From the NCBI GenBank assembly GCA_018969485.1, contig JAGWYG010000014.1, positions 1-53,766 on the forward strand: a DNA stretch of 53,766 nucleotides, given 5' to 3'. Source of the DNA: Chloroflexota bacterium. Its GTDB lineage: Bacteria > Chloroflexota > Chloroflexia > Chloroflexales > Roseiflexaceae. Under the pieces are notes generated by a model. That model was not told the DNA's origin. It did not search any database and worked only from the letters and a program-made list of their open reading frames with translations. How positions within the stretch are numbered: position 1 is the first letter of the stretch; every line of letters starts with the position of its first letter. Both the position numbers and the translations under genes were made by a program. Shown here in pieces: positions 52,409-53,766 of the stretch.

Positions 52409-52843
52409 TCAGGCATCGTCGGGCGGCGTGGGCTGCAGCGCCAGCGGGCCGGCCTGCTGCCAGTACCGCGAGAAGCGCCGCAGATCGAGCGGGACGTCGG
52501 GCGGAATGAACGGCGGCGGTGCGAGCACCTCGACCGTCAGGGTTGCCGCCAGGCGCCGGCAGATCGCGGCGAAGCCCGGCGACACCGAGTCGCTGGTGGC
52601 GACGCGCCGGGCGCCGTGGGCCGCCGCAAACGCGGCGACCTCGGCGGCCACGCTGCCGCGCACGATCGTGACCGGCAACTCGAGCAGGCACTCGTAGATG
52701 AACACGATGCGCTTCAGGCTGAGGCGCCGCCGCAGCAGCGCGTCGTCCCACACGAACACCGCCGGCGCGGCGGGGAACGCGCGCAGCGCCGGGCCATCGG
52801 GCGCGAGGCAGTCGCCGTGTACCCATACGACCGTCGGCGTCAT
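52409..52843 (-). CDS. Photolyase-type alpha/beta (antenna) domain protein, stand-alone
   Basis: 144 residues. The start overlaps the stop of the FAD-domain gene (ATGA). The sequence VVWVHGDCLAPDGPALRAFP, PAVFVWDDALLRR, RIVFIYECLLELPVTIVRG and VAAFAAAHGARRVATSDSV follows the N-terminal Rossmann-like domain of DNA photolyases, which holds the antenna cofactor: the first strand, the DxxL..A pattern and the F(I/V)xECL region. The FAD-binding half is missing and is encoded just upstream, so the two products probably form one two-subunit photolyase or cryptochrome (inference). Confidence 0.75.
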   Translation of the reverse strand: MTPTVVWVHGDCLAPDGPALRAFPAAPAVFVWDDALLRRRLSLKRIVFIYECLLELPVTIVRGSVAAEVAAFAAAHGARRVATSDSVSPGFAAICRRLAATLTVEVLAPPPFIPPDVPLDLRRFSRYWQQAGPLALQPTPPDDA

Positions 52844-53655
52844 CGCGGCGCCTCCGGCGGCAGCTGCGGAAACAGCCGGCGGTACAGCACGGCGCGATCG
52901 CCGGCGAACGGGCAATCGCCGGCGCGCGGACAGCCGCGGCAGAAGCGCCCGCCGCTGAGCCGCTCGAGGTTGTCACGGTCGAACCAGTAGGGTTTGCTGC
53001 TGAAACTGCTGGCCACCCACTGCCACGAGAGGTTGTTGCTGGCCGGATCGCCGTCGAGCAGGTGCTCGAGGAACCAGCGCGCGCCCGCCTGCCAGCGGAC
53101 CCGGCGCCAGTGGACCAGGTAGGCGGCGAGCCACAGGCGCGCGTGATTGTGGAGGTAGCCGGTGTCGCGCAGCTGCTGGCTGAAGGCATCGATGCAGGCG
53201 AGGCCGGTGGTGCCCTGCGCGACATCGTCGGGCAGCGCCGCCGCATAGGCCGATGCCGGCCAGCCCGTCTTGAGCGGCTCGCGATCGCGCCAGATGCCGC
53301 GGCCGATCTGGCGGTAGACGCGCTGCCAGTAGTCGCGCCAGCCGAGCTCGTTGATCAGCTTGCCGGCATCGGCGGCGCGCCGCACCGCCGCCAGCGCGGC
53401 GTCGCGCACCTCGGCGAGCCCGATCACGCCGTGGCGCAGGTATGGGCTCAGGCCGGTGACTGCGCCGTCGAGCGCATTGCGCGTCGCGGCGTAGCGCACC
53501 GGATTCAGCCGCGCCAGCCGCTCGCGGGCCGCCCGCTGGCCGCCGCGGATCGGGCTCACGGTGGCGTCGCGTGCGGCGGCCTCGGGGAACTGTTCGCGCA
53601 CATAGGCCACGAGGTCGGCGCGGTCGGCGAACGAACGACGCAGCGGTGCGCTCAT
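52840..53655 (-). CDS. FAD-binding domain of a DNA photolyase/cryptochrome, stand-alone
   Basis: 271 residues. GGGAG lies 7 bases before the ATG at 53655, which overlaps the stop of the gene before it. The helical FAD-binding domain is clear: LSPYLRHGVIGLAEVRDAAL, LINELGWRDYWQRVYRQIG, IDAFSQQLRDTGYLHNHARL, and FLEHLLDGDPASNNLSWQWV. The normal TGTDAxPYFRIFNP end is replaced by SSFSSKPYWFDRDNLERL and a Cys cluster FCRGCPRAGDCPF, which could bind metal. The N-terminal antenna domain is lacking and is encoded by the next gene. Confidence 0.88.
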   Translation of the reverse strand: MSAPLRRSFADRADLVAYVREQFPEAAARDATVSPIRGGQRAARERLARLNPVRYAATRNALDGAVTGLSPYLRHGVIGLAEVRDAALAAVRRAADAGKLINELGWRDYWQRVYRQIGRGIWRDREPLKTGWPASAYAAALPDDVAQGTTGLACIDAFSQQLRDTGYLHNHARLWLAAYLVHWRRVRWQAGARWFLEHLLDGDPASNNLSWQWVASSFSSKPYWFDRDNLERLSGGRFCRGCPRAGDCPFAGDRAVLYRRLFPQLPPEAPR

Positions 53656-53766
53656 CGGCCGGCTCCCGTCGGACGCCCGCCGCTGCGCGCGTAGCGCCGG
53701 CATGCGTCGCTGCAGTACTTCGTCGCCTCCCAGTTGCGCGCCAGGCTCTTGCGCCAGGTGAATGGC
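53652..53766 (-). CDS. DUF2256 small zinc-ribbon-like protein, N-terminus outside the window
   Basis: The last 37 codons are seen: PFTWRKSLARNWEATKYCSD, ACRRYARSGGRPTGAGR, stop. This matches the C-terminal part of DUF2256, a roughly 50-residue protein with two Cys pairs, here YCSDAC, that is often found beside photolyase genes. Its stop overlaps the ATG of the FAD-domain gene (ATGA), so three genes in a row are coupled. The start is beyond the right edge. Confidence 0.8.
   Translation of the reverse strand, partial: PFTWRKSLARNWEATKYCSDACRRYARSGGRPTGAGR

Follow-up and report, generated by a model that had tools for sequence, protein, structure and literature searches.

The closest described counterparts of the locus analyzed here are Phr4/Phr5 and the fused Phr6 of marine Synechococcus and Cyanobium, published in 2022 as a two-gene, domain-inverted photolyase (PMC9426592). 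The authors of that study favored (6-4) repair for Phr4/Phr5, on the basis of the Fe-S cysteines and of a phenotype under UV-C but not UV-B, and they left open whether programmed frameshifting joins the two products into one protein. A stand-alone antenna partner, which a sequence-only reading of our locus had considered not well described, was thus already in the literature. A second line of work concerns the "short photolyase-like" (SPL) proteins, which are described as CPD repair enzymes without an N-terminal domain (PMC9649867). One of them is found in S. elongatus (PMC9178010), and SPL and NewPHL proteins together have been assigned CPD repair on single-stranded DNA and an inverted topology (PMC13274461). 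SPLs have been proposed to be an ancestral photolyase that has no antenna domain.

Our analysis covered a stretch of 53,766 nucleotides from a Chloroflexota contig (referred to as the window here), at whose right end three minus-strand genes follow one another in the order DUF2256, FAD domain, antenna domain. The FAD-binding (catalytic) half of the photolyase is encoded by a phr4-like gene of the SPL type (53655..52840, minus strand), whose product of 271 amino acids is referred to as P0001. It is followed by a phr5-like gene (52843..52409, minus strand) for a stand-alone alpha/beta antenna domain of 144 amino acids (P0002). Two ATGA overlaps, read directly from the minus strand, connect the DUF2256 stop with the phr4 start (53652..53655) and the phr4 stop with the phr5 start (52840..52843). 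The DUF2256 gene, which codes for a predicted small zinc-ribbon-like protein, is cut by the contig end, and its 3' part of 37 codons lies inside the window (53652..53766, minus strand; PF10013, E=1.3e-9, 38.4 bits against a cut-off of 25). The ATGA link to DUF2256 that had been reported earlier therefore stands, but the window holds the 3' end of that gene and not the complete gene. Contig C238 of the same genome ends in the 5' part of a DUF2256 gene and shares an 18-base overlap with the window end. Joining the two would give an intact DUF2256 protein of 56 amino acids, MRGVNKRDLPQKPCVTCGRPFTWRKSLARNWEATKYCSDACRRYARSGGRPTGAGR, which shows a Cys-x2-Cys ... Cys-x3-Cys pattern. The same genome separately encodes a fused class I photolyase (L003:3356-4807), and it also has a DPRP/PhrB-type protein with the His-His motif and four cysteines on contig C61.

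The identity of the catalytic half is given by its own matches. P0001 belongs to FAD_binding_7 (PF03441, E=1e-23), with no N-terminal antenna domain, and phmmer matches it to class I photolyases of known structure (1e-20). It fits the SPL class, and its predicted single-chain structure is of middling quality (pLDDT 75). For the 144-amino-acid protein, the assignment came from evidence other than its own Pfam match. Scanned alone against DNA_photolyase (PF00875), it reached E=0.042 and 14.2 bits, below the cut-off of 26.6, and a PDB sequence search with it returned one meaningless match only (E=0.058). However, 12 of its 15 relatives match PF00875 (best, 4.4e-6), and hhalign paired a profile of these 15 relatives with one built from class I antenna domains (probability 90%, E=1.5e-6, 135 columns). 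The AlphaFold (AF2) model of the antenna protein (pLDDT 84.6) retrieved photolyase/cryptochrome chains as its 27 best PDB matches in Foldseek and aligns with PhrB (4dja) over 127 columns at 2.3 Å. The same domain also occurs fused behind the same FAD domain in natural proteins. Given the PF00875 matches of the relatives, the profile-profile alignment, the predicted fold, and these natural fusions, we identify the protein as a photolyase antenna domain, as the sequence-only reading had claimed. None of the three proteins matches PF04244, the DPRP N-terminal domain.

We consider it likely that the two genes code for the subunits of a single DNA photolyase of the Phr4/Phr5 (SPL) type. In such an enzyme, the phr4 subunit would bind FAD and a 4Fe-4S cluster and dock on UV-damaged DNA, while the phr5 subunit would assemble with it into a heterodimer. 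The antenna subunit would be expected to carry a second chromophore, take up blue light, and hand the energy on to the FAD in phr4; the FAD, reduced and excited, would then give the electron that splits the lesion, in our reading a CPD.

The cysteine cluster CRGCPRAGDC noted earlier in P0001 is present as Cys239-x2-Cys242-x5-Cys248 (52912..52941, minus strand), and a fourth cysteine, which had been missed, lies at position 154 (codon 53194..53196, minus strand). Cys154, Cys239, Cys242, and Cys248 align with Cys350, Cys438, Cys441, and Cys454 of A. tumefaciens PhrB, respectively, the ligands of the PhrB 4Fe-4S cluster, and the surrounding KPY...N...YC-x2-C...CPF pattern aligns as well. By this alignment, the suspected metal site becomes a predicted Fe-S site, with the four residues as predicted 4Fe-4S ligand positions. 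Their spacing equals that in Phr4 of RS9916 (169, 254, 257, 263) to within one residue. Across 106 distinct relatives, all four cysteines are found in 101, the exceptions being two Anaerolineales and three Alphaproteobacteria, and the position of Cys154 alone is a cysteine in 103. In these five phr4 relatives (L127, L133, L134, L136, and L139), some or all of the Fe-S cysteines are lost while the split arrangement is kept.

Scanning one genome for each bacterial and archaeal species with the patterns [LM]HNHAR[ML]W or HLLDGDPA gave 80 named loci. P0001 has the active-site motif His-Asn-His-Ala-Arg and does not carry the His-His-x-x-Arg motif of the FeS-BCPs; within its His-Asn-x-x-Arg motif (His169-Asn170, codons 53146..53151, minus strand), the Asn takes the position of the catalytic His of (6-4) photolyases (PhrB His366). 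The position of Asn170 is Asn in 106 of 106 distinct relatives, a count that is partly selected because the pattern behind the 80 loci itself contains His-Asn; the motif is also kept in 12 relatives (set A1) found without the scan pattern. Outside the scan patterns, as are the cysteines, lies Glu103 (codon 53347..53349, minus strand), which aligns with the class I CPD-specific Glu (A. nidulans Glu283) and is conserved as Glu in 104 of the 106 relatives. Position 174 is Leu in P0001, and Met (97) or Leu (9) in the relatives. The alignment further shows that FAD-site, Trp, and lesion-contacting residues are conserved in phr4 proteins. In class I CPD photolyases, the Glu contacts the lesion, and an SPL from Rhodococcus fascians reportedly carries both FAD and an Fe-S cluster and repairs CPDs.

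These residues bear directly on the lesion that the enzyme would repair. In the Drosophila (6-4) photolyase, His365Asn abolishes repair and His369Met greatly reduces it (PMC9852545); these two histidines correspond to Asn170 and to position 174 of P0001. Given the Asn, Met/Leu, and Glu of the active site, these Drosophila mutants, and the SPL papers, we prefer CPD over the published (6-4) prediction, a specificity that the CPD-type active site suggests. That the same two-subunit enzyme repairs (6-4) lesions instead, the view taken of Synechococcus Phr4/Phr5, seems unlikely to us. Its four Fe-S cysteines do align with those of a (6-4) enzyme, PhrB, and the phenotype in Synechococcus and E. coli is specific to UV-C (PMC9426592), but the catalytic His is replaced by Asn in every relative, nearly all of them have Glu at the CPD position, the corresponding His365Asn exchange kills the Drosophila activity, and SPLs are described as CPD repair enzymes (PMC9649867). 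The published (6-4) assignment thus faces an objection that is specific and can be tested.

Repair is a far more probable role for phr4/phr5 than sensing, since the residues for CPD repair are kept and a UV-C survival phenotype is seen in a phr4 mutant (PMC9426592). Of the "repair or sensory" alternatives put forward earlier, it is thus the first that finds support. The family includes cryptochromes, and the genome has an ordinary fused photolyase and a PhrB-type protein besides, which would leave room for a cryptochrome-like blue-light sensor in place of a repair enzyme; we regard this as very improbable, given that the residues for lesion contact and the FAD site are conserved and that phr4 has UV survival phenotypes in Synechococcus (PMC9426592). 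E. coli carrying phr4/phr5 gains UV-C survival, in line with a repair role, with no significant difference between light and dark (PMC9426592). Such similar protection is odd for a photolyase and counts against the photolyase reading.

The conservation of the pair was assessed in close relatives and in the 80 named loci. P0001 is 55-66% identical to cyanobacterial proteins (55-62% for the marine Synechococcus orthologues, among them ones whose neighbor is the antenna gene), and phr4 orthologues occur in about half of 60 relatives as well as in named Cyanobacteria, Acidobacteriota, and others. Together with the genome of the window, 32 of 61 close genomes have a true phr4 (broken or partial in two of them), and 31 of these 32 have the antenna gene (Fisher p=4e-11); the only one without it, G056, shows a partial phr4 match only. 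The 80 loci come from Cyanobacteria, Chloroflexota, Acidobacteriota, an Acidimicrobiia bacterium, Alphaproteobacteria, a Planctomycete, and a MAG labelled Tatlockia. Of these loci, 57 carry the antenna gene downstream and on the same strand, 7 have a fused FAD-antenna ORF, and 16 have no antenna gene in the stretch examined; for 15 of these 16 the genomes were searched, and an antenna gene was found elsewhere in all (17 of 17 genomes searched). Wherever the two are adjacent or fused, the FAD domain comes first. With few exceptions among the genomes tested, in five phyla, the FAD gene has the antenna gene with it, and the fused form occurs in four phyla. Split or fused, the arrangement is found in seven bacterial phyla, as a rule in genomes with a DUF2256 gene. 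Fused as well are three proteins of 456-472 amino acids with the Fe-S cysteines, on Deinococcus plasmids (L173, L174, L180).

Because the same arrangement recurs across many genomes, chance can be excluded as its origin, and because natural fusions share the FAD-then-antenna order, the reversed order is not odd within the phr4 family. The earlier description of a split photolyase with coupled genes in reversed order is therefore borne out by the ORFs, the domains, the two ATGA overlaps, and the wide co-occurrence, the last of which that reading had proposed to survey. Fragments left behind when a photolyase was broken up, through rearrangement or a sequencing frameshift, for which a dispensable role beside the complete class I photolyase and isolated broken phr4 cases such as that in G045 might be invoked, are contradicted by intact orthologous pairs in many genera and several phyla, with the FAD domain first and invariant functional residues, and we give this explanation almost no weight.

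The survey also turned up several unusual loci. The fused Deinococcus photolyases, located on large plasmids, are annotated only as FAD-binding domain-containing protein. In one relative, phr4 appears broken into two reading frames (G045:C1:2565557-2566353), and in another, an antenna-domain gene that is 37% identical was found (G033:C126:59625-60008) in a genome in which no phr4 was found, possibly a solo antenna protein. At four loci from Acidobacteriota and an Acidimicrobiia bacterium (L109, L112, L114, L122), a third photolyase-family gene follows DUF2256-phr4-phr5, making up a photorepair cluster; this gene is class I/DASH-like and scores far under the NCBIfam cut-offs. Many Chloroflexota have a DPRP/PhrB-type gene upstream of phr4, in the order DPRP-(DUF2256)-phr4-phr5 (L071, L077, L103, L106, L127; L006, L012, L015-L024).

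The distribution of the genes also speaks to the number of polypeptides. Relatives of genus g3 have an acyltransferase-like gene of ~340 codons between phr4 and phr5, and many Nostocales have no antenna gene in the 6 kb flanking phr4 on each side but carry it at another place in the genome. With an intervening gene or distant loci, the products are certainly two polypeptides in those lineages, where frameshifting is not needed. This is a partial answer to the question raised in the Synechococcus paper of two polypeptides versus one frameshifted protein. A quick tree, in which many forks are weakly supported, places the window protein inside an SPL clade together with the Synechococcus split and fused forms, with class I far outside. 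In the same tree, whose deep forks are poorly supported, fused forms appear in at least three places: a Planctomycete, Deinococcus with a Rhodospirillales, and Cyanobium/Synechococcus.

A published paper that mentions DUF2256 gives no function for it. DUF2256 was found in all 40 named phr4 genomes tested versus 2 of 14 control genomes, while DPRP was found in only 27 of those 40. Among 221 sampled Chloroflexota, 16 have phr4, 18 have DUF2256, and 24 have DPRP; phr4 and DUF2256 occur together in 15, and a DPRP (PhrB-type) photolyase is present in all 18 DUF2256-bearing genomes (Fisher p of about 1e-19 and 1e-21 for the phr4/DUF2256/DPRP association, uncorrected for shared ancestry). In Chloroflexota, Acidobacteriota, and an Acidimicrobiia bacterium, the DUF2256 gene immediately precedes phr4. 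Of 299 Pseudomonadota genomes, 88 have DUF2256, and at 12 of 30 loci examined there its neighbor within ~1.5 kb is DPRP or another member of the photolyase family and not phr4. A strict requirement of phr4 for DUF2256 was rejected, as 8 of the 32 close phr4 genomes have no DUF2256 match, which shows that DUF2256 is not essential. Its use as a marker of phr4 alone was likewise rejected, given three Chloroflexota with DUF2256 and DPRP but no phr4, and given the 12 Pseudomonadota loci. The linkage suggests that DUF2256 probably assists Fe-S-type photolyases, with a role in maturation, stability, or DNA/partner binding; it might help to load the cluster or the chromophore, or to bind a partner. 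For the complex of all three proteins that the sequence-only reading suggested, the evidence is likewise genetic linkage. The co-occurrence ties this small protein family to photorepair genes across several phyla.

Compared with known systems, the locus has the appearance of a real, conserved, working-looking two-subunit photolyase of a kind already described in cyanobacteria. It resembles Synechococcus/Cyanobium Phr4/Phr5 in its adjacent genes, with FAD first and antenna second, in the four Fe-S cysteines, and in the equal tail spacing. It differs in its Chloroflexota host, in the ATGA overlap, where Synechococcus has a seven-base spacer, and in the DUF2256 gene directly upstream; none of the cyanobacterial loci examined has it nearby, and their genomes have it elsewhere. 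The NewPHL/Phr7 single-stranded DNA photolyases, the nearest outside group in the quick tree, share the FAD-first order and the His-Asn motif but have no Fe-S cysteines and carry a C-terminal Z-domain in the same chain. The idea that this Z-domain is a decayed antenna subunit was rejected (hhalign probability, 2%). PhrB (FeS-BCP, PF04244 DPRP) has the four Cys ligand positions and the KPY...N...C-x2-C...CPF tail in common with phr4; unlike phr4/phr5, it is one chain with the antenna first, a His-His-x-x-Arg active site, and a long C terminus. The class I CPD photolyase of the same genome shares the FAD-site, Trp, and lesion-binding residues, but it is fused, has the opposite domain order, and is without Fe-S cysteines. 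Finally, the SPL class (Xu et al. 2021, as cited in PMC9649867 and PMC9178010) is described as antenna-less, whereas in the window a neighboring gene supplies the antenna. It is possible, at slightly less than even odds in our view, that four-Cys "antenna-less" SPLs are generally two-subunit Fe-S CPD photolyases with a separate antenna protein and with DUF2256 as their dedicated accessory. If so, the proposal of an ancestral antenna-less SPL would lose much of its basis, and DUF2256 would gain its first functional assignment. The two-gene arrangement itself is already known; the extension to other phyla, the objection to the published specificity, and the link to DUF2256 are what the present analysis adds to it.
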